64,000 nt of DNA from Halorubrum sp. BOL3-1. Lineage in GTDB: Archaea; Halobacteriota; Halobacteria; Halobacteriales; Haloferacaceae. Position numbers and translations under genes: made by a program. The DNA is taken from contig NZ_CP034692.1 of NCBI RefSeq assembly GCF_004114375.1, positions 1,302,001 through 1,366,000 of the forward strand, in the 5' to 3' direction. Under the pieces are notes generated by a model that saw only the letters and a program-made list of their open reading frames with translations, was not told where the DNA came from and made no database searches. Positions 22,869-56,589 of the stretch are shown here, in pieces. Positions within the stretch are counted from its first letter, which is position 1; each line of letters starts with the position of its first letter.

Positions 22869-25800
22869 TCAGTCGTCGCCCGAGACCTGTTCGGCCGCAT
22901 CGGCGCCGACGGCAGGCACCGCGGCGGCGGGCGCCGGCAGCTCGTCGCGAACGTCGTCGCCGATCCCCTCGGCGATGACGTCGGCGTACGCGTCGGGGAA
23001 CACGCGGACGAAGTCGTCGAGCGCCGCCTCCCAGTCGTCGAGCAGGTCTGTCGCGCGCTCGCTGTCGGCGTACGCGCGGTGGTTCTCGACGAGCCGGCGC
23101 AGCATCCGCTCGTCGGAGTCGCCGAGCGTCTCGGACACCGAGACCATCCCGCGGTTCACCCGGTCGTCGAACCGGTCGTCCGGGTCGTACACGTACGCGA
23201 TACCGCCGGACATCCCCGCCGCGAAGTTCCGACCCGTGTCACCGAGGACGGCGACGACGCCGCCGGTCATGTACTCGCAGCCGTGGTCGCCGACGCCCTC
23301 GACGACGGCTTTCACGCCGGAGTTACGGACGCCGAACCGCTCGCCTGCGACGCCGTTGACGTACAGCTCGCCCGAGGTGGCGCCGTACAGCGCGACGTTG
23401 CCGACGACGATGTTCTCAGTCGGGTCGTACGCCGCCTCCGCGGGCGTCTCGACCACGAGGCGGCCGCCCGACAGGCCCTTGCCGACGTAGTCGTTGGCGG
23501 CGCCCGACAGTTCCATCGTGACTCCCGACGCGAGGAACGCGCCGAAGCTCTGCCCCGCCTCGCCGTCGAACCGACAGGTGATCGTGTCGTCCGGAAGCCC
23601 CTCGCCGCCGTGTTCGGAGACGACGCGGTTCGACAGCGTCGCGCCGACCGCGCGGTCGACGTTGCGGATGTCGCGGGTGAGCGCGACCGGCGCGCCGTCC
23701 TCGATGGCGGGGGCGGCCTCGTCGATGAGGTCCCAGTCCAGCAGGTCGTCGATCCCGGGATGGGCCTGCTCGCGCACCTTCGTTCGGGACTCGCCGGCCG
23801 GCTCGGCTATCACCGCCGACAGGTCGAGGTGCTTCGCCTTCTCGTGGTCGGTCTCGCGCTGTGTGAGCAGTTCCGGGCGGCCGACGAACTCCTCCACCTC
23901 CGTGTACCCCTGCTCGGCCATGATCTCTCGCAGCTCCTGGGCGATGAACGTCATGTAGTTGACGACGTGGTCCGGCTGGCCGGGGAACCGCTGACGGAGG
24001 TCCTCGCGCTGGGTGGCGACGCCGACCGGACAGGTGTTCTCGTGGCACTGCCGGGCCATCACGCAGCCCGAGGTGACGAGCGACGCGGTGCCGAAGACGT
24101 ACTCCTCGGCCCCGAGCGCGGCCGCGACCGCGACATCGCGCCCGGTCCGCAGTCCGCCGTCGGCCGACACGCGGATCCGGTCGCGCAGGCCGGTGGCACG
24201 GAGCATCTGGTTCGCCTCGGCGAGACCAAGCTCCCACGGGAGCCCCGCGTTCTTGATCGACGTCTTCGGCGACGCGCCCGTGCCCCCGGAGTGGCCGGAG
24301 ACGTGAACGACGTCCGCGTTCGCTTTCGCGACACCGGCGGCGATGGTGCCGATACCGGCCTCCGAGACGAGTTTCACGTTGACGTCGGCGTCCGGGTTCG
24401 CCGCCTTCAGGTCGAAGATGAGCTGTTTGAGGTCCTCGATCGAGTAGATGTCGTGTTGGGGCGGCGGCGAGATGAGTCCGACACCCGGCGTGGAACACCG
24501 GACGTGCGCGATCATCTCGTTGACCTTCTCGCCCGGGAGGTGACCGCCCTCACCGGGCTTCGACCCCTGTGCCATCTTGATCTGAATGTCCTCGGCGTTC
24601 GCGAGGTAGTCGGCGGTGACGCCGAAGCGGCCGGAGGCGACCTGCTTGATCGTACACTCTTTTTCGGTGTCGAACCGCTCCGGCGGCTCACCCCCCTCGC
24701 CAGTCCCCGATTTCCCGCCGATACGGTTCATGGCGATCGCGTTGTTCTCGTGTGCCTCCGGCGACAGCGAGCCGAGGCTCATCGACGCCGTCGCGAACCG
24801 CTCGACGATCGACTCGATCGGCTCGACGCGGTCGACCGGCACCGGGTCGCGGTCGGAGTCGAACTCCAAGAGCCCGCGCAGCGTCTGGAGCTCCTCGGTC
24901 TGGTCGTTCACCAGCTCCGCGAACTCCCGGTACTGCTCGTAGTCGCCGCCGCGCACCGCCTGCTGGAGCGTGCCGACCGTCTGCGGGTTCCAGCCGTGTT
25001 TTACCCCCGAGGAGCGGTGCTCGTACTCGCCGGTCGTCTCCAGCTCGGGGTCGGCGCCGAACGCCATCGCGTGGCGGGTCCGGAGGTCGTCTTCGATCTG
25101 CTCGATTCCGATCCCCTCGGTCCGGATCTCCGTCCCTTCGAAGTACTCGGCAACGAAGTCGGAATCGAGTCCGACCGCCTCGAATATCTGGGCGCCCTGG
25201 TACGACTCCATCGTCGAGATGCCCATCTTCGCCATCGTCTTCAGGAGACCGTCCTCCAGCGCGTGGCGATACGCCGCGAGCGCCTCGTCCTCGTCGGCCC
25301 CGTCGGGGCCGGCGACCACGTCGGCGATGGAGGCGTACGCGAGGTACGGGTCGACCGCGTCGGCGCCGTAACCGACGAGCGTCGCGAGGTGGTGGACCTC
25401 GTGCGGCTCGCCGGACTCGACGACGACGCCGGCGCGGTTCCGTAACCCCTCGCGGACGAGGTGGTGATGGACCGCGCCGGTCGCGAGCAGGCTCGGCACC
25501 GCGAGCCGCTCGGGACCCACGGCGCGGTCGGAGAGGACCACGACGTCGGCGCCGTCCTCGACCGCGGCCGCGGCGTCCCTACGGACCCGACTCACGGCGT
25601 CGACGAGCGACCTGTTTCGGTCGTACGTGGTGTCGACGGTGACGGCGTCGAACGCCTCGACGCCCTCGCCGAGGGACTTCAGCGCGGCCGTCTCGCCGTC
25701 GGTGAGGACGGGCGAGTCGGAGACGATCTGACGGGCGTGCTCGGGCGTCTCGGCGAGCAGGTTGCGCTGGTTGCCGATCCGCGATTCGAGCGAGGTGACG

Positions 25801-27551
25801 AGCTCCTCGCGGATGTAGTCGATCGGCGGGTTCGACACCTGCGCGAACAGCTGTTTGAAGTAGGTGAAAAGCGGCCGGTCGACGTCGGTCAGCACGGACA
25901 GCGGGGTGTCGTCGCCCATCGATCCGACCGGATCCTTCCCGGACTCCGCCATCGGCTCGACCATGTTGTCCAGCGAGTCGGTCGTGTACCCGAACGCGGC
26001 TTGGTGCGCCCGCGTCGGTGGCGACGCGTCGGCGTCGTCCCCGTCGGCGTCGCTCGCCGCGACGGTCGTGTCCCCGTCGAGCCCGGCGGCGAGCCCGTCC
26101 GCCGGCGCGTCGGTCGCCTCAACGACGGACGGCAGGTCGAGCTGTTCGTCTTCCACCCACTCGCCGTACTTCTCGTCGGTGAGCGCTTCGAACACCTCGT
26201 CGTCCGGGACGATCCGGCTCGACTCCGGGTCGGCGACGAATATCTCGCCGGGCTGGAGCCGTCCGCGGCGGCGCACGTCGGCGGGCTCCGTCGGGAGGGC
26301 CCCGACCTCGCTGCCGACGACGAGCCGGTTCTCGGTCGTCACCTCGTAGCGACACGGGCGAAGCCCGTTGCGGTCGAGGACGCCGGCCACGCGGTCGCCG
26401 TCGAAGCCCAAGACGAGGGCCGGACCGTCCCACGGCTCGACGAGGGAGGCGTGGTAGTCGTAGAAGTCGGCGCGGTCGTCGTCCATCAGGTCGTCACCGC
26501 GGAACGCCTCCGGGATCAGCATCCGGAGCGCGTGCGGGAGGTCGCGGTCGGTCTGGAGGAGGAGTTCGAGCGCGTTGTCGACGCTGGCGGTGTCCGACTG
26601 GTTGGGGTCATCGATCACCGGTTTGATCGTGTCGAGTTCGGCCCCGAACGCCGGGTGTTCGAGGTCGTTCTCGCGGGCCCGCATCCAGTTGACGTTCCCG
26701 CGGATCGTGTTGAACTCGCCGTTGTGGACGATGTTTCGGTACGGGTGCGCGAGGTGCCACGCGCCCAGCGTGTTCGTCGAGAAGCGCGCGTGGACCAAGG
26801 CGACGTGGCTCGCGAACCGCTCGTCGGTCAGGTCCGGATAGTAGTCCGCGAGCTGTGACCCCTTCAGGAGTCCCTTATAAACGACGCGCTGGCGGTCGAG
26901 CGAGCAGACGTAGAATCGGCCGGCACCGTCGACGTCGGACACCGCGTTCTCGATCTCGCGGCGGGCCGCGTACAGCGCGCGGTCGAATCCGAGCAGGCCG
27001 GGGTCGGCGTCGTCCGAGCGGGTCTCCTCGCTCGTGAACCGCTGGGCCAACCCGGCCCCCTCCACCGGGGCGACGAACACCTGCGACACCTCCGGCTCCG
27101 ATTCGAGGGCCGTCGCGCCGAGGTCGGCGTTGTCGGTCGGGACCGACCGCCACGCGAACACCTCCAGCCCGTAGACGGCACACACCTCCGCGATGACGTC
27201 GTGGATCTCCGCCTGGACGCCCGGTTCCGGCGGCATGAACACGGAGCCGACGGCGTACTCCTCCGGAAGGTCGGCGTCGACGACCTCGCGGAAGAACTCG
27301 TCGGGGCGAGCTACCATGATCCCCGCGCCGTCTCCGGTGTTCTCCTCCGCGCCGGTCGTCCCTCGGTGTTCGAGGTTCTCGAGCAGCGTGATCGCGTCCG
27401 TGACCGTTTCGTGCGTCGGGGCAGCGTCGAGGTCGACGACGCCGCCGATACCGCAGTTCGACCGGTCGTCAGTCGGCGCCGCGAGTCCCCTTTCTCGGCC
27501 CGAGGTGTCCGAGTCCCGTACGCCTCGGGTGGTACTACGTGACTTGGTCAT
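22869..27551 (-). CDS. gltB: Glutamate synthase, large (alpha) chain
   Basis: A 1560-aa protein. The start MTKSRSTTRGVRDSDTSGRE at 27551 gives a 32-residue pro-region before Cys33 of SNCGIGGVVDLD, the N-terminal nucleophile of the class II amidotransferase domain after processing. Downstream are a central domain, then the FMN-binding synthase domain (SEAGIGTIAAGVAKANADVV, VHVSGHSGGTGASP), the 3Fe-4S cysteines 1163, 1169 and 1174 (CVMARQCHENTCPVGVATQ), and the C-terminal beta-helix GXGXG domain (NDYVGKGLSGGRLVVETPAE). It makes glutamate from glutamine and 2-oxoglutarate. Only the large chain is present, as in ferredoxin-dependent enzymes; no gltD is nearby. An acidic insertion around residues 480-510 is haloarchaeal. 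Confidence 0.97.
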   Translation of the reverse strand: MTKSRSTTRGVRDSDTSGRERGLAAPTDDRSNCGIGGVVDLDAAPTHETVTDAITLLENLEHRGTTGAEENTGDGAGIMVARPDEFFREVVDADLPEEYAVGSVFMPPEPGVQAEIHDVIAEVCAVYGLEVFAWRSVPTDNADLGATALESEPEVSQVFVAPVEGAGLAQRFTSEETRSDDADPGLLGFDRALYAARREIENAVSDVDGAGRFYVCSLDRQRVVYKGLLKGSQLADYYPDLTDERFASHVALVHARFSTNTLGAWHLAHPYRNIVHNGEFNTIRGNVNWMRARENDLEHPAFGAELDTIKPVIDDPNQSDTASVDNALELLLQTDRDLPHALRMLIPEAFRGDDLMDDDRADFYDYHASLVEPWDGPALVLGFDGDRVAGVLDRNGLRPCRYEVTTENRLVVGSEVGALPTEPADVRRRGRLQPGEIFVADPESSRIVPDDEVFEALTDEKYGEWVEDEQLDLPSVVEATDAPADGLAAGLDGDTTVAASDADGDDADASPPTRAHQAAFGYTTDSLDNMVEPMAESGKDPVGSMGDDTPLSVLTDVDRPLFTYFKQLFAQVSNPPIDYIREELVTSLESRIGNQRNLLAETPEHARQIVSDSPVLTDGETAALKSLGEGVEAFDAVTVDTTYDRNRSLVDAVSRVRRDAAAAVEDGADVVVLSDRAVGPERLAVPSLLATGAVHHHLVREGLRNRAGVVVESGEPHEVHHLATLVGYGADAVDPYLAYASIADVVAGPDGADEDEALAAYRHALEDGLLKTMAKMGISTMESYQGAQIFEAVGLDSDFVAEYFEGTEIRTEGIGIEQIEDDLRTRHAMAFGADPELETTGEYEHRSSGVKHGWNPQTVGTLQQAVRGGDYEQYREFAELVNDQTEELQTLRGLLEFDSDRDPVPVDRVEPIESIVERFATASMSLGSLSPEAHENNAIAMNRIGGKSGTGEGGEPPERFDTEKECTIKQVASGRFGVTADYLANAEDIQIKMAQGSKPGEGGHLPGEKVNEMIAHVRCSTPGVGLISPPPQHDIYSIEDLKQLIFDLKAANPDADVNVKLVSEAGIGTIAAGVAKANADVVHVSGHSGGTGASPKTSIKNAGLPWELGLAEANQMLRATGLRDRIRVSADGGLRTGRDVAVAAALGAEEYVFGTASLVTSGCVMARQCHENTCPVGVATQREDLRQRFPGQPDHVVNYMTFIAQELREIMAEQGYTEVEEFVGRPELLTQRETDHEKAKHLDLSAVIAEPAGESRTKVREQAHPGIDDLLDWDLIDEAAPAIEDGAPVALTRDIRNVDRAVGATLSNRVVSEHGGEGLPDDTITCRFDGEAGQSFGAFLASGVTMELSGAANDYVGKGLSGGRLVVETPAEAAYDPTENIVVGNVALYGATSGELYVNGVAGERFGVRNSGVKAVVEGVGDHGCEYMTGGVVAVLGDTGRNFAAGMSGGIAYVYDPDDRFDDRVNRGMVSVSETLGDSDERMLRRLVENHRAYADSERATDLLDDWEAALDDFVRVFPDAYADVIAEGIGDDVRDELPAPAAAVPAVGADAAEQVSGDD

Positions 27552-27623
27552 ACGATTCCTCACGAGTGAATAGGTAAAGGGATAACCCTGATACGGGTAG
27601 GATCCATCGTACACACATTAGGG

Positions 27624-27634
27624 AATATAAGGTA
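27624..27634 (-). promoter_or_regulatory. gltB: Candidate TATA box of gltB
   Basis: On the minus strand CCTTATATTCC lies about 75-85 nt before the gltB ATG at 27551, leaving a leader of roughly 45-50 nt. The surrounding 27560-27720 stretch is unusually AT-rich for this window, as expected for a regulated promoter region. No palindrome is obvious. Confidence 0.3.
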
Positions 27635-27780
27635 ATTATTCATCACGGGTGGTGAACAAATCACATACCTCATGTTTGATCAGTGTATCTGCTTTTTCAA
27701 GTTTTGTCCCGGTAGAGATATCACAGCTACACCGGAGACGTTTCGCAGATCCCGAAACGAGTGAGGAAACGTCCAGTCTG

Positions 27781-27951
27781 TTATTTCCCTTCGAGGGGAA
27801 CGAACGTGCCGTTAATGTCCCACTCGTGGATACAGTAGACGTTCCCGGGCTCGGCGGCGATCCGCCACCCTTCGGCCTCGTCGTCCCACCGCTCCTCGCG
27901 CCCGCACAACTCGCACGCGCGTTCCTTCGGCGGTGTGATGGTCACGCTCAT
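27781..27951 (-). CDS. HEWD family mini-protein
   Basis: A 56-aa protein starting MSVTITPPKERACELCGREE. It has a CxxC pair (Cys13/Cys16), a single further cysteine in VYCIHEWDINGTFVPLEG, and the conserved HEWDINGTF block that names a small haloarchaeal family. The family has no known function; a single zinc site formed by three cysteines and the histidine is possible. It is found as a stand-alone gene. The start at 27951 is preferred over in-frame upstream codons because the family begins MS-V-x-I-x-P. Confidence 0.75.
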   Translation of the reverse strand: MSVTITPPKERACELCGREERWDDEAEGWRIAAEPGNVYCIHEWDINGTFVPLEGK

Positions 27952-28111: not shown

Positions 28112-31100
28112 TCACGGTTCACGCACGCGACGACGAGCGAGCAGCGACGCGCACGCCACCGCCGCGAGCGAACCGACGGGACCGAACCCGGGAAGGTCGT
28201 ACGCGGTCGACCGGATCGGCGCGTCGTCGTACCCGAGGTCGCTCGCGTCGGTCCCGTCGGAGGACGAATCGCTCGCTTCGGAGGGACCGACCGACTCGGC
28301 GGGTCCGGTCGCCCCCTCGGAGTCGGCGTCGGACGCCCCGTCGCCGCTCGACCGCTCGGTCGCCGGCCGGGACCCCTGCGTTGAGGGACCGTCCGTACCC
28401 TCATCCGTCCGGTCGGTACCGAAAGTCTCCAGCGCTCCCGCGGACGGCAGGATCTCCGACGTACCGGGCGCGACCGTGATTCCGACCCCCAGAGGAGCCG
28501 TCGCGGGGTCACCGTCCGGGCCTCGTGACCCGTTGGGTGCCCCCTGACTCTCCCCACTCGAACCGGTGCTGGTGCCGGCGGGACCACCGGAATCGGCGGA
28601 CCCGCCGGTACCGGTGGAACCGCCGGTTGTATTCGAACTATCGACGTCGCCCGATCCACCGGAACCGCCGGAGCTACTCGGCGTCCCCGACCCGCTCGGC
28701 GCACCCGACTCACCGGTCGCTCCGGTTCTGGACGGTCCCCCCGAGTCGTTCGGTCCGGCTCCCGTCGACGATCTCGCGGCCGACTCGTCGCCGGTCTCGT
28801 TCGTCGGGCGTTCGTCGACGGGGTCGGCAGCCGCGTACGTCACCCGCGCCGTCACTCGGCGGTCGCCGTCGCCGGCCCGACGCAGTCGGTCGTCGTCGAC
28901 CCTGAATCCGGCTTCGAACGTGTCGCCGTCGGCGGGCGGGGTCTCGGTGCCGAACGCGGTCTCGCCGTCGGCAACGAGGAACAGGCCCTCGCGGTCGAGA
29001 TGGACCGTCGATTCGTTCGGAATCGACCCGAGCGCATCTCCATCGCCGGAGGCGTTGGCGTCGTCTGTGCCTGTCCGCGTCACCCCGAACGAGAGACCGT
29101 CGAGGCGGTCGAGGTCCGTGCCGCGCTCCAGCGACGCGTTCGCGGCCGCCGGGAGACCGGTCAATCCGGTCGCGTTCACGGCGTAGACCACCGTGTCGTT
29201 CGCGGTGGCGGTCGTCGCCGCCCCAAGCGTCCCGTCGGCTATCGCGTCTCGGATCGCGGTCGCATTCCCGAAGTCGCCCGGAACAACCTCTCGCGTGGTG
29301 TACGCAGTAAGATCCGTCGTCGATCGCTGATCGACCGTGACCGTGACGCTGTCGTTGGCGACCGCGGTACCGTGTTCCGACCGCAGCGTAACGTCGTACG
29401 TTCCGGGCGATATCGGATCCATGCTCCCGGTGACCGAATCGACGCTGACGCCGGAACCGGTCGTGACGAAATCCGACGGAGAATCCGGCGACGCGTACGT
29501 GTTGATCGTGATGGGCGTCGGACCCGTCTCTGTAGTTGTGAGTTTGAGTGTTGTAGTAGTGTTATTTGAAGAAGAGAATGAAGCAGTGGAGTGATTGTAT
29601 GTTGAATTAAGCGTTAGATTGAGATAACTACCGTCAAACAACATTTGGCCGTTATTAGCAAATACATCTGTCTTTTTTGTCTCAATAACATCCACATTCT
29701 TGCTAACAGTCATATTTGTGTTTGGGTCATGGACTGTTATGTTATAGTTTCCAGATTGAGAAACAGGGACATATCTGCTAATATTAGACTCCTCATCAAA
29801 CAGGATCTCATCACGATATATTACAGAATTTGATTTTGTCACGTTAAGAATTACACCTCTGCTCATTCCTTTCTGTTCAGTATGTACCGCTATCTGAGAA
29901 TTTTCTGCGGAATCTGTCACCTCAATATTAATTGAGGATTCAACTAGTTTGATCGTAGTATTTTGATCTTTAGAGTCAGAAACTAATGAATAATGGCCAG
30001 ATTCGAGCGTATCCGTACCAAATTCATGAATTCTATTTGTATCAGTTGTATTTATTTTTCTGACTGTACTTCCATTAGATCTAGAAAGAGTGTATTGTGT
30101 TCCATTTTGTGATTTAAATCCAATATTTGAACCCTGATTGATTGTATATTCTCTATTGTCGGAGACGATCGTAGCGACTCGAGTGAGTGAATTATAGCTA
30201 TTATTGAATGAATTACTACTTGAATTGGAGATAATATCTTTAACCTGTATATCATTAATTACTCGAGGTACTTTTGATTGGTTGGTGAGATAAATATATA
30301 GAAATTTACCGTTTACGTCATATTTTTGAATATTATCGTTAAGACGAATACTTGTTCTGTTATTATTTGAAAAGCCAATGTGAATATGGCCTTGAGTCTC
30401 AGATATATTTGTATTAAATTCGAATAGAAGGCTGCTATTATATTTTTTCCCAGTTTGAGTCCCATCAAAATAGAATGGGCCTCCTACAAGTTGAGCAGGT
30501 ACTGGGACGTTTATTGTTGCTGTATCCATGGCGTAAATCGTCTTTGGACCATACTTATTTTCCTGTGAATGTATTCCAATAAGAACGTCCGTTTTACCCT
30601 CAATGTCCGTATCGCCAAGAGATACGTTTTCACGAGGTAGTTCTACAGTTCCAATCTTTTGTCCAATACTACCATTATGTTCTTGCTCCCAGATTGTTAT
30701 GGAGGGATTGGATCCTAAGCTATCATTAACAGAGTAATCATAGAGAACAGATTCTGTTGTCTCGTTATACGCGTTAGTCTCAAGTTTAACAGATGCTGGA
30801 GACGATATATTGAACTCAACGGACCCCCGCCTTCCTCCTTGTTTAGCAGTATAAGAAATCGTACGATTGATTTTTGAACCATTTTGATTATACATACTAA
30901 CGTTTGTTGTGTCAATATTGTTAATATGAAGATCAAATAGCCCAGATTTTGGGATCGCGGAGTTGGCGATGATAATTGTCGAATTTGAACAATTTGGCTC
31001 CTCTATGTACACTCCAGAATTCTTCGTATTTTCATCGGAAGTAATTCGATATGAGGTCGCATTGTGATCTAATTGTGCTCCAGAATCGACAAGATCCCCG

Positions 31101-31318
31101 ACATGAATTTTGACAGGACCACTAGACTGAACAACTTCGATATTGGTAATTACTTGCTCCTCATCTGTCCCGATATCAAGATCACTTGCGTCATCTACGT
31201 CCCATAATACGCCAGATACTACAATTGTTCCTGAGTATATTAATAATACAACAGAAGTGATCACAAAACAAAAGACAATACCGACCGACACACACCGAAG
31301 CGATCGCGTCTGAGTCAT
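28112..31318 (-). CDS. Mosaic PGF-CTERM cell-surface glycoprotein
   Basis: A 1068-aa exported protein. An N-terminal hydrophobic segment (residues 10-34, FCFVITSVVLLIYSGTIVVS) serves as signal or anchor. Residues about 35-590 are rich in Asn, Ser, Thr and Ile with roughly thirty N-glycosylation sequons. Residues 600-860 have the haloarchaeal surface domain pattern LTAYTTREVVPGDFGNATAI and NDTVVYAVNATGLTGLPAAA. Residues 860-1010 are a Gly/Ser/Thr stalk. The end LPGFGPVGSLAAVACASLL plus a basic RRR is a PGF-CTERM signal, the target of archaeosortase A (encoded at 41174). The DNA for residues 1-590 is AT-rich whereas the rest is GC-rich, implying recent domain replacement. Confidence 0.85.
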   Translation of the reverse strand: MTQTRSLRCVSVGIVFCFVITSVVLLIYSGTIVVSGVLWDVDDASDLDIGTDEEQVITNIEVVQSSGPVKIHVGDLVDSGAQLDHNATSYRITSDENTKNSGVYIEEPNCSNSTIIIANSAIPKSGLFDLHINNIDTTNVSMYNQNGSKINRTISYTAKQGGRRGSVEFNISSPASVKLETNAYNETTESVLYDYSVNDSLGSNPSITIWEQEHNGSIGQKIGTVELPRENVSLGDTDIEGKTDVLIGIHSQENKYGPKTIYAMDTATINVPVPAQLVGGPFYFDGTQTGKKYNSSLLFEFNTNISETQGHIHIGFSNNNRTSIRLNDNIQKYDVNGKFLYIYLTNQSKVPRVINDIQVKDIISNSSSNSFNNSYNSLTRVATIVSDNREYTINQGSNIGFKSQNGTQYTLSRSNGSTVRKINTTDTNRIHEFGTDTLESGHYSLVSDSKDQNTTIKLVESSINIEVTDSAENSQIAVHTEQKGMSRGVILNVTKSNSVIYRDEILFDEESNISRYVPVSQSGNYNITVHDPNTNMTVSKNVDVIETKKTDVFANNGQMLFDGSYLNLTLNSTYNHSTASFSSSNNTTTTLKLTTTETGPTPITINTYASPDSPSDFVTTGSGVSVDSVTGSMDPISPGTYDVTLRSEHGTAVANDSVTVTVDQRSTTDLTAYTTREVVPGDFGNATAIRDAIADGTLGAATTATANDTVVYAVNATGLTGLPAAANASLERGTDLDRLDGLSFGVTRTGTDDANASGDGDALGSIPNESTVHLDREGLFLVADGETAFGTETPPADGDTFEAGFRVDDDRLRRAGDGDRRVTARVTYAAADPVDERPTNETGDESAARSSTGAGPNDSGGPSRTGATGESGAPSGSGTPSSSGGSGGSGDVDSSNTTGGSTGTGGSADSGGPAGTSTGSSGESQGAPNGSRGPDGDPATAPLGVGITVAPGTSEILPSAGALETFGTDRTDEGTDGPSTQGSRPATERSSGDGASDADSEGATGPAESVGPSEASDSSSDGTDASDLGYDDAPIRSTAYDLPGFGPVGSLAAVACASLLARRRVREP

Positions 31319-31599: not shown

Positions 31600-32262
31600 T
31601 CAGTGTTCGACCGATCCCATCATCGAGAGTAGCTGGTCAGACTGATCGATCTTCTCCGGGTGGACGCCTGTCATCACGACGACATCGTCGTCGTCTTCGA
31701 CGGTGGCGATGTAGACGAGAACGGGAATATCCTCGACGGAGCCGCTCTGACCGTTGGCGTCGTCGACGTCCGCACTGACCGTCGTCTCGAGGATCGACAC
31801 GGTGGTCTCCTCTCCGAGGATGTCCTGCGTCTCCTCGCCGGCCTCCTCGATGTCGTCCGTCTGTATTTCGGTCTCGTTACCGCCGATCCCCTGCTGGTCG
31901 ATCCGGTCGAGGAGCTGCCGGATGAGATCCGCTCCCTCGGCTCTGACGAGCGGGTTGACCGACTCTCCGGCGAACGACTCGTTCGGGGTACTCGCCACGA
32001 ACAGCGCCGATCCGATTTCCTCGTTGGTGTACTGAGTGACCCAGGTCGTCGCCGACACCTCCACGTTCACGCCCGTGGCGTTGAACCCCTCGTTAATGGA
32101 GAACTCTTGCGGTCCCTGACCCGAGTACCCGTCAGCGTACGCGCTCTCCGGGATCTGTGCCGGTTCCGCGTCGAGATCGAAGCTCTGGTCCTGACCTGCG
32201 CACCCGGCGACGGTGACCGAGGTCGATACGGCGAGCGCCGCGAGCAGTCCACGTCGCTTCAT
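31600..32262 (-). CDS. DUF6517-like lipoprotein
   Basis: A 220-aa exported protein. MKRRGLLAALAVSTSVTVAG is followed by a lipobox VAGC with Cys21 and an early RR, so it is a haloarchaeal lipoprotein. The mature part has AEPAQIPESAYADGYSGQGP, VEVSATTWVTQYTNEE, LFVASTPNESFAGESVNPLV and a C-terminal strand VVVMTGVHPEKIDQ. This arrangement resembles the DUF6517 family, which is largely restricted to haloarchaea and has no known role. The start at 32262 is preferred because it places the twin arginine at residues 3-4. TTTTTT just upstream may be part of its promoter. Confidence 0.7.
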   Translation of the reverse strand: MKRRGLLAALAVSTSVTVAGCAGQDQSFDLDAEPAQIPESAYADGYSGQGPQEFSINEGFNATGVNVEVSATTWVTQYTNEEIGSALFVASTPNESFAGESVNPLVRAEGADLIRQLLDRIDQQGIGGNETEIQTDDIEEAGEETQDILGEETTVSILETTVSADVDDANGQSGSVEDIPVLVYIATVEDDDDVVVMTGVHPEKIDQSDQLLSMMGSVEH

Positions 32263-54861: not shown

Positions 54862-55244
54862 CGGCGTCTCTCGCGAGTCCCGCCGCTTAGCCGACGTGTC
54901 CGGCGTAAAAAGAGGTCCCGTGCCGTATGGAACTGCTGTGTTCGGTACGACCGCGTGAGATCACTGGTCTACTTGCCTGTTGAAATTCTATTTTTCAGAG
55001 ATATTTTCGCCTGAAACAGCCGGTCGATAGAGACTGCGAGTTGACCGCTAAGGTTCCTACCAGTTTCGGATGACGTTCAGAGCGCAGTACAAGGTACAAC
55101 GCGCGAGTCTTGTACCGTGGCATCCCAACGGACTGGCAGAGCAGTCATCGAACGCGCTCTGGTGTTCTGGCGAAACGATTTTATATTATTTTTATATTTT
55201 GGATAGTAGCCAAAACGTATACGTCCTGAAACTATAGATAAGCC
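54862..55244. other. Intergenic stretch with possible mobile-element remnant
   Basis: No intact gene. On the minus strand, about 55012-55115 reads RYKTRALYLVLRSERHPKLV and then GTLAVNSQSLSTGCFRRKYL with a stop, a segment that looks like the end of haloarchaeal insertion-sequence repeats. There are also AT-rich patches near 55175-55200 (TTTTATATTATTTTTATATT) that may be the promoter of the cupin gene. The composition is more AT-rich than the flanks. Confidence 0.35.
55182..55201 (+). promoter_or_regulatory. AT-rich promoter stretch of the cupin gene
   Basis: A near-continuous A/T run (TATATTATTTTTATATTTTG) ending about 45 nt before the cupin GTG at 55245. Part of it probably acts as a TATA box. 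The extremely low GC distinguishes it from the rest of the window. Confidence 0.35.
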
Positions 55245-55574
55245 GTGAATCAAATTAACGTTGCTGACGCAGCGGATCAGTTGGCTGAGGACGGAGAGAT
55301 GGAAACTGAACTAATGCGTGAGGTATCGTTCAGTCTCCAAGTGATGCGGTTTGAACCGGGTGACGAGGATCAGATGCACGCTCACGCTGAAGAAGAAATT
55401 TATATCATTAATACAGGCGAAGCGACGCTCGTAACCGAGGACGAGTCGGTTGAGGTTGCACCGGGTGACGTTGTCCACCTCGGGTCCGGGACGGACCACC
55501 AGTTTACCGACTTCAACGACGAGTTCGCCGTTACGGTGGTGTACGCGCCTGCTGAGGGGTCTCAGGCAGTATAA
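55245..55574 (+). CDS. Cupin-domain protein
   Basis: A 109-aa small cupin with a GTG start (MNQINVADAADQLAEDGEME). Cupin motif 1 is DQMHAHAEEEIYIINTGEAT, with metal ligands His, His and Glu; motif 2 is PGDVVHLGSGTDHQFTDF with His. One metal site in a single beta-barrel. Such small cupins act as isomerases, dioxygenases or sugar-binding regulators; none can be singled out. Codon use looks less GC-biased than neighbours, consistent with its location in a mosaic stretch between decayed elements. Confidence 0.78.
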   Translation: MNQINVADAADQLAEDGEMETELMREVSFSLQVMRFEPGDEDQMHAHAEEEIYIINTGEATLVTEDESVEVAPGDVVHLGSGTDHQFTDFNDEFAVTVVYAPAEGSQAV

Positions 55575-55642
55575 GAATCGGCCGCATCCGACAGCAGGAG
55601 ACTCCCCAACTTTGTCTCTGCCTACCCCTTCCGCCTCAACAT

Positions 55643-55774
55643 ATGACTGACGGCCAGTCCGACTCATTTGACGGACCGAACTCGATTGCTGGTTACATCC
55701 TCTATATCTATCACGGGTTACCTACTATTTATTTGATAATTCACGATCTTCTGCGAGAAGTGGTTCAGTATTGA
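55643..55774 (+). CDS. Hypothetical 43-aa protein
   Basis: ATG 55643 to TGA 55774 encodes MTDGQSDSFDGPNSIAGYIL, followed by YIYHGLPTIYLIIHDLLREV. One hydrophobic amphipathic stretch (AGYILYIYHGLPTIYLIIH) could enter the membrane. AT-rich codon use and low conservation make it doubtful; it may be a remnant. No Shine-Dalgarno-like sequence is visible. Confidence 0.25.
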   Translation: MTDGQSDSFDGPNSIAGYILYIYHGLPTIYLIIHDLLREVVQY

Positions 55775-55824
55775 GCGATCGAGGGAGGAAAACTAACAGC
55801 TTATGAATATTTCAACGGGGCCGT

Positions 55825-56589
55825 CTACTCGTAGACCCTCACGTCGTCGAACCGGCCCTCGTAGGCGACGTTCGACGGGAGCGTCGGCTCGTTACCGGAG
55901 AGGAACATCCGGTCGAGTTTCGCCCAAGTGTTCTCGTAGCCGAGGTGCGCGAACTCGACGAGACCGCGGAGCCGGTGGCCGACCCCGCCTCGGTGGATCA
56001 CCTTCCGGGGACGGCGCTCGCGGAACGCGTTCACGACTGCCTCGGCGTCGTCGAGGTCGCCCTCGAAGGCCGTCCACGCCTCCCCGACCGTACCGGGAAG
56101 GTGCGCGTACGACGATCCGAACCCGGTGCGGCCGGTCGCTTCGGCGGTCCGACGCGCTCGGGCGTTCTGGTGGGGTAACAGCTTCGTGTTGTACGTCTCT
56201 ATCGAGTCGATCCGGTCGGCGTGGGCGTCGACCTCGGGCCGCGTGAGCGAGATGGTGGCGAATCCGGGGTGCGGGACGAGGACGGCGGCGTCCTGCCGCT
56301 CGAACTCGGCCATCGCGCCCTCGAAGGTGATGTAGTCGGGAACCGGGTCGGAGAGGCCGACGACGAGGAGGTGCCGTCGGTTCCCCCAGTCGCCGGTGAA
56401 CACCTCGCGGGCGGGGACGACGGTCAGCTCGTCGTCGGAGTGTCGGGCCGCGCGCTCGCGGACCGTGGGGAGGCGCGTGAAGTGCGGCGCGTACACGAGC
56501 GCGTCGATCCCGCGGGCCTTCGCGCGGGCGACGACCTCGTCGTCGAGCACCTTGACGTGGGCGTCGACGCGCGTTCTCGATCGGGTCAC
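55825..56589 (-). CDS. PHP-domain phosphoesterase-like protein
   Basis: About 254 aa from GTG 56589. It shows PHP-domain features: VDAHVKVLDDEVVARAKARG (early His), YAPHFTRL, VPAREVFTGDWGNRRHLLVV, VPHPGFATISLTRPEVD and SYAHLPGTVGEAWTAF, with the usual scattered His/Asp metal ligands for a trinuclear zinc site. The C-terminal 70 residues (RRPRKVIHRGGVGHRLRGLV) are the extension seen in haloarchaeal members. The activity is a guess: a phosphoesterase acting on nucleotides or RNA. The start is uncertain; the frame is open further upstream to 56616. Divergent from the zinc finger gene. Confidence 0.7.
   Translation of the reverse strand: MTRSRTRVDAHVKVLDDEVVARAKARGIDALVYAPHFTRLPTVRERAARHSDDELTVVPAREVFTGDWGNRRHLLVVGLSDPVPDYITFEGAMAEFERQDAAVLVPHPGFATISLTRPEVDAHADRIDSIETYNTKLLPHQNARARRTAEATGRTGFGSSYAHLPGTVGEAWTAFEGDLDDAEAVVNAFRERRPRKVIHRGGVGHRLRGLVEFAHLGYENTWAKLDRMFLSGNEPTLPSNVAYEGRFDDVRVYE

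Follow-up and report, generated by a model that had tools for sequence, protein, structure and literature searches.

How does a single reading frame come to hold a strongly AT-rich half within a GC-rich haloarchaeal genome? The question is raised by a surface glycoprotein gene of Halorubrum sp. BOL3-1 (28112..31318, minus strand), which lies in the 64,000-nucleotide stretch of DNA that was analysed (the window). The first-pass annotation had taken the low GC of its exposed half as foreign composition, swapped in by allelic replacement in front of a native C-terminal part.

Composition break within one gene

The gene is a single uninterrupted frame of 1068 aa with an ATG start, and orthologues are found in 46 of the 52 Halorubrum genomes examined. 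Its conserved 5' edge (31244..31318, minus strand; approximate, at codon ~15-25) comprises the start and the first part of a signal peptide, and the N-terminus is, by sequence, hydrophobic in every complete orthologue. An AT-rich cassette of beta domains follows (29530..31283, minus strand; aa ~12-596), delimited by a change-point fit and recognised by a type-specific HMM, with an AF2 model for its fold. Beyond it lie a GC-rich conserved C-terminal domain (C-domain; 28838..29512, minus strand) that runs from an NTYAS motif to the DDDRLRR region, a Ser/Gly/Thr-rich low-complexity stalk evident from the sequence itself (28199..28828, minus strand), and a PGF-CTERM archaeosortase sorting signal at aa 1041-1064 (28127..28198, minus strand). 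The sorting signal scored 25.4 bits with TIGR04126 against a curated cut-off of 24.5, which marks the protein as a probable PGF-CTERM substrate and bears out the anchor named in the first-pass annotation; the C-terminus has a PGF motif, a hydrophobic stretch and a basic tail (...DLPGFGPVGSLAAVACASLLARRRVREP). NCBIfam contained nothing beyond PGF_CTERM for this protein, and Pfam gave no significant match. Thirty of its 41 N-glycosylation sequons are located within the first 600 aa. A profile of the C-domain recovered the S-layer-like paralogues that these genomes carry (E 1e-10 to 1e-21), as expected of homology to csg; the signal peptide of those paralogues, MTND..RxKANAVFFAA.., is absent from the window protein.

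A three-segment fit placed the AT-rich part at aa 12-596 (~31283 to 29530), with GC of 0.58, 0.36, and 0.70 before, inside, and after it. The sharp drop reported near 29535 is therefore real; the low GC does extend over most of the half, but it starts inside the signal peptide (~31283) rather than at the start codon. Positions 29536-31280 have a GC of 0.359, compared to a mean of 0.690 (sd 0.029, minimum 0.576) for other 1.7-kb segments of the 64 kb, which puts the cassette ~11 sd under the rest. GC at third codon positions (GC3) is 14-36% inside the cassette and 68-92% downstream of it. Because GC3 drops within the cassette, the low GC is a matter of synonymous composition and not of amino-acid choice alone. 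Further, milder dips (GC 0.47-0.54) occur in the window at 54901-55900, 1701-2200, and 27401-27900.

This composition is not special to the genome at hand. Every Halorubrum orthologue complete enough to read is AT-rich between the signal peptide and the NTYAS motif and GC-rich in the rest. The first-pass annotation had itself named an AT-rich half in the orthologues of relatives as evidence against its interpretation, and such a half is found genus-wide. Mean fourfold GC (GC4) of the cassette is 0.31 and 0.30 in the two allelic types, A and B, described below, and that of the C-domain 0.86 and 0.88, respectively; cassette GC4 ranges from 0.22 to 0.39 across the genus. The two most divergent orthologues (L065 and L076) have cassettes ~150 aa longer through insertions and a less extreme GC (~0.45 in L065). 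Used as a control, the S-layer-like paralogues (L120-L134) have a GC3 that is mildly lower toward the exposed N-terminus (~45-70% vs ~85%); these paralogues are strongly divergent between species. About ten draft assemblies break within the AT-rich cassette, whereas the numbers of contigs predict 1.9 such breaks (P about 3e-5). These include the contig ends L110-L116 as well as L061, L077, and L117, and may reflect coverage bias or heterogeneity within cultures.

Two mutually exclusive types at one locus

An all-against-all comparison split the N-terminal halves in two; between the groups, identity is 11-22%, even for members whose C-domains are 90-92% identical. Type HMMs divided the 46 orthologues into 20 of type A, 24 of type B, and two that are truncated, with no cross-matches; in addition, the partial genomes G002, G013, and G046 carry B, G018 has a partial A, and Halorubrum sp. 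Atlit-26R (L086) contributes one further A. The window cassette is type A, scoring 784 bits with the type A HMM and giving no match with the type B HMM. Alignment of the A and B profiles with hhalign found homology only in the final ~150 aa (probability 91, E 1.2e-6, 156 columns), corresponding to the last Ig-like part of the cassette (29528..30001, minus strand). The type HMMs revealed no intermediates between A and B among the Halorubrum orthologues. No genome carried both types, and full-length A and B were confined to Halorubrum among 170 family and 342 order genomes. The exposed half thus exists as two mutually exclusive idiomorphs at one locus across Halorubrum. One type B cassette, that of Hrr. 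yunnanense (L053), contains a TAG stop and a frame change, and may be a pseudogene or an assembly error. A silent second cassette or phase variation was considered and rejected, as no genome has both types and genome G000 gave no B match. A description of this dimorphism was not found in the literature searched, nor was any trans-species allelic dimorphism of a surface or recognition gene described there for archaea.

With few exceptions, A and B alleles share their neighbours in the two main clades. Upstream are genes for a predicted lipoprotein (31600..32262, minus strand; syntenic in nearly all genomes of these clades), a membrane protein, and a nuclease-like protein. Downstream of both types are genes for a 56-aa protein (27781..27951, minus strand) and a gltB-like glutamate synthase (22869..27614, minus strand), both of which form a right flank conserved in synteny; in a third clade, the downstream side of the locus is kept. 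The lipoprotein was considered as a linked partner gene and rejected, since its variants track subclades rather than type.

The limits of the heterologous segment are sharp. Hrr. tebenquichense (L033, type A) and a sister species carrying type B (L042) are mostly 88-98% identical outside the segment and ~38% identical over 1.7 kb inside it, with flanks that are 95.7% identical across 9.9 kb. High identity runs from upstream through the signal peptide and resumes ~20 codons before NTYAS, and the same nucleotide pattern was seen in three more pairs (L035/L038, L044/L050, and L058/L062). At the 5' edge, identity between A and B is 0.87-0.89 until ~10 codons past an RSLR motif and 0.14-0.22 beyond that point. 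As an average over pairs and rows, the drops in A/B identity and in GC3 lie no more than about 10 codons apart at either edge, which ties the composition to the heterologous segment. A comparison of the kind proposed in the first-pass annotation, made here across species, returned unrelated 5' halves joined to constant 3' halves.

Descent, exchange and age of the types

Using one genome per species, we counted type changes on a gltB tree, taken as a proxy for the species tree, and on a C-domain tree. On the gltB tree 12 changes were needed, of which well-supported branches force 9, against a mean of 13.3 after shuffling; for the C-domain tree the corresponding figures are 14, 11, and 14.9. Since these counts are close to the shuffled means, type is almost unlinked from ancestry. 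Of the 25 closest pairs, 12 combine an A with a B. In 27 of 41 cases the nearest neighbour has the same type, slightly over half, which counts against the reading favored below. Within A and within B, cassettes group by species clades and subclades, as read from the tree rather than from a formal congruence test, which suggests that exchange occurs mostly among close relatives and that each clade has long contained A as well as B. As judged from these sequence comparisons, the pattern is that of two old allele lines inherited in parallel, a trans-species dimorphism with classes older than the species that carry them. Polymorphism for A and B within species is predicted. The allelic replacement proposed earlier can be retained in part: the half is replaceable in front of a constant 3' half, given flanks of 88-98% identity and at least 9-11 forced changes, so that exchange holds in a stronger form than proposed, but a recent swap-in of foreign DNA is not supported.

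The many type changes on both trees could also be produced by transfer between species from a circulating pool of cassettes, instead of ancestral polymorphism. One pair hints at such exchange, as the cassettes of L035 and L086 (dS 0.13) are slightly closer than their C-domains (0.175), and it is a candidate for recent cassette exchange. A freely circulating pool is nevertheless unlikely, because cassettes within each type group by species clade and subclade, and a mobile carrier was not found in plasmid, phage, or viral collections for the types searched in each.

In the other eight of nine pairs, dS is higher in the cassette than in the C-domain, by a factor of ~1.8-3.4. Within types, cassette dN/dS is 0.16-0.31, indicating that the cassette is under purifying selection. 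Cassette dS reaches ~1 between close species and its composition is still without a shift to host values. These distances bear on whether the half was recently imported into this genome from an AT-rich donor. AT-richness is common among foreign genes of haloarchaea, and a cassette of GC 0.36 in a background of 0.69 would fit that pattern. A B-like domain is also present at L135 (G178:C1:501000-508000; locus GC 0.50, E 2e-49), in an order member of lower GC, with three matches to the middle of type B within one 991-aa protein, and this domain is a possible origin of the B domain. Against import, all readable orthologues of both types share the composition, full-length A and B are restricted to Halorubrum among the genomes searched, and an imported composition would have shifted toward the host by a dS near 1. 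The donor search likewise came back empty: the window protein had no match in plasmids or phages, type A none in viral contigs, and type B none in plasmids. The patchy presence and the composition lacking in orthologues that mark foreign DNA were not observed here, and we regard recent import as highly improbable.

Proposed role in recognition and probable exclusion from recombination

AF2 models of types A and B (pLDDT 75 and 72, respectively; pTM ~0.5) are of moderate quality and depict chains of beta domains. Multi-Ig proteins matched both models in Foldseek; an S-layer protein structure determined in situ (7ptp) ranked first among PDB matches to B and also matched A. Global TM scores were low, so that only the kind of fold is supported. 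S-layer proteins serve as receptors or fusion triggers for viruses in Halorubrum (PMC8875312, PMC10384203). An exposed half with two exclusive versions suggests a role in virus contact or cell recognition.

We favor, at a probability of roughly two in three, a reading in which the gene encodes an S-layer-like multi-Ig PGF-CTERM glycoprotein whose outer ~580 aa exist as two ancient idiomorphs, exchanged through their flanks, kept by balancing selection, and AT-rich through exclusion from recombination. A strain would switch type when homologous recombination takes place in the conserved sequence either side of the cassette, which comprises the signal peptide and the genes upstream of it at one end and the region from the C-domain to gltB at the other. 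Frequency-dependent (balancing) selection on whatever the outer half meets would keep both types, an interpretation suggested by their distribution among the sequenced genomes; the selective agent would most likely be virus contact and next most likely cell-cell recognition. Heterology would bar the cassette from the recombination by which the remaining genome stays homogeneous and GC-rich, leaving the silent sites of the cassette near mutational equilibrium.

That equilibrium has been estimated at ~20% GC in Halobacterium salinarum (PMC9997560), which would put the cassette nearer to it than the genome is. The AT-richness is thus probably the result of drift toward mutational equilibrium where idiomorphs cannot recombine. 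Polarised fourfold changes, counted as a gauge of amelioration, numbered 158 AT>GC and 72 GC>AT in the cassette, and 15 and 78 in the C-domain, but these figures carry, in either half, the bias of parsimony toward rare states. Several considerations weigh against the compositional mechanism. The homeocassettes of Hrr. ezzemoulense are also mutually exclusive and are mostly of normal GC, 65-70% (PMC11078007), gene conversion in Haloferax volcanii is without clear GC dependence (PMC8223754), and recombination between A and A or B and B should remain possible, so that exclusion would be only partial.

A different account holds that AT-richness is selected as such, independent of the dimorphism, through translation pacing, mRNA structure, or low expression or silencing. 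The composition is indeed very uniform across the genus, and the exposed N-terminal parts of the S-layer paralogues are mildly GC-poor as well. The C-domain, however, is in the same frame, is also secreted, and yet is GC-rich; the edges of composition fit those of heterology rather than domain or secretion landmarks; and related domains elsewhere are coded GC-rich. We consider this account possible though somewhat unlikely. That the fold inherently needs AT-rich codons was rejected as an explanation, because B-like domains of other genera are GC-rich (L136 and L138; GC3 ~80-95).

Recombination-excluded idiomorphs that drifted toward an AT-rich equilibrium might also belong to a genus-wide two-allele recognition locus, mating-type or self/non-self-like, in which A and B govern cell fusion or DNA exchange. 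There are exactly two classes in balanced numbers, mutually exclusive, without intermediates and persisting across species, and glycosylation at the cell surface matters in haloarchaeal mating (PMC5496957). Virus contact predicts much the same pattern, though, and no linked or partner locus was identified, with the upstream lipoprotein variants following subclades; such a system is quite doubtful.

Under the favored reading of flank-exchanged idiomorphs, this small and well-bounded locus would probably determine which viruses infect, or which cells fuse with, a given Halorubrum, and it yields a clean two-state prediction. The contrast inside one gene, with the same frame and the same secretion, bears on what holds haloarchaeal GC far above mutational equilibrium. 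If A and B did form a recognition locus of the mating-type or self/non-self kind, their exclusion from recombination would make it a natural experiment on what keeps these genomes GC-rich.

Bacterial porin alleles and fungal mating-type idiomorphs are known dimorphisms of surface or recognition genes that persist across species boundaries; like A and B, whose role is a proposed one, they are long-standing classes of alleles that exclude one another. In Haloferax, two S-layer glycoprotein types are likewise divergent, distantly related PGF-CTERM surface proteins (PMC5867893), but each is tied to one clade, whereas A and B occur in every Halorubrum clade and differ only in the outer half. The Halorubrum S-layer protein implicated in fusion of HRPV-6 (TKX57172; PMC8875312), compared here by description only, is also a PGF-CTERM protein of S-layer type and similar length (1083 aa), but the authors of that study matched it to canonical S-layer proteins. 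In replacement flexible genomic islands (PMC4033161), exposed structures are also replaced via homologous recombination in conserved flanks, which is thought to alter phage sensitivity; those islands comprise many genes in many versions, in contrast to two versions of one half-gene. The homeocassettes and homeoalleles of Hrr. ezzemoulense (PMC11078007) include surface functions, are spread over geographic and phylogenetic groups, and, like the A/B cassette, consist of divergent versions that exclude one another and lie between one set of core genes. They are, however, multi-gene islands with at least half homeoalleles, within one species and mostly of host-like GC, whereas the Halorubrum unit is ~1.75 kb inside one frame, genus-wide and extremely AT-rich. 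The A/B cassette is therefore set apart from homeocassettes, while being an instance of the known phenomenon of mutually exclusive allelic versions.
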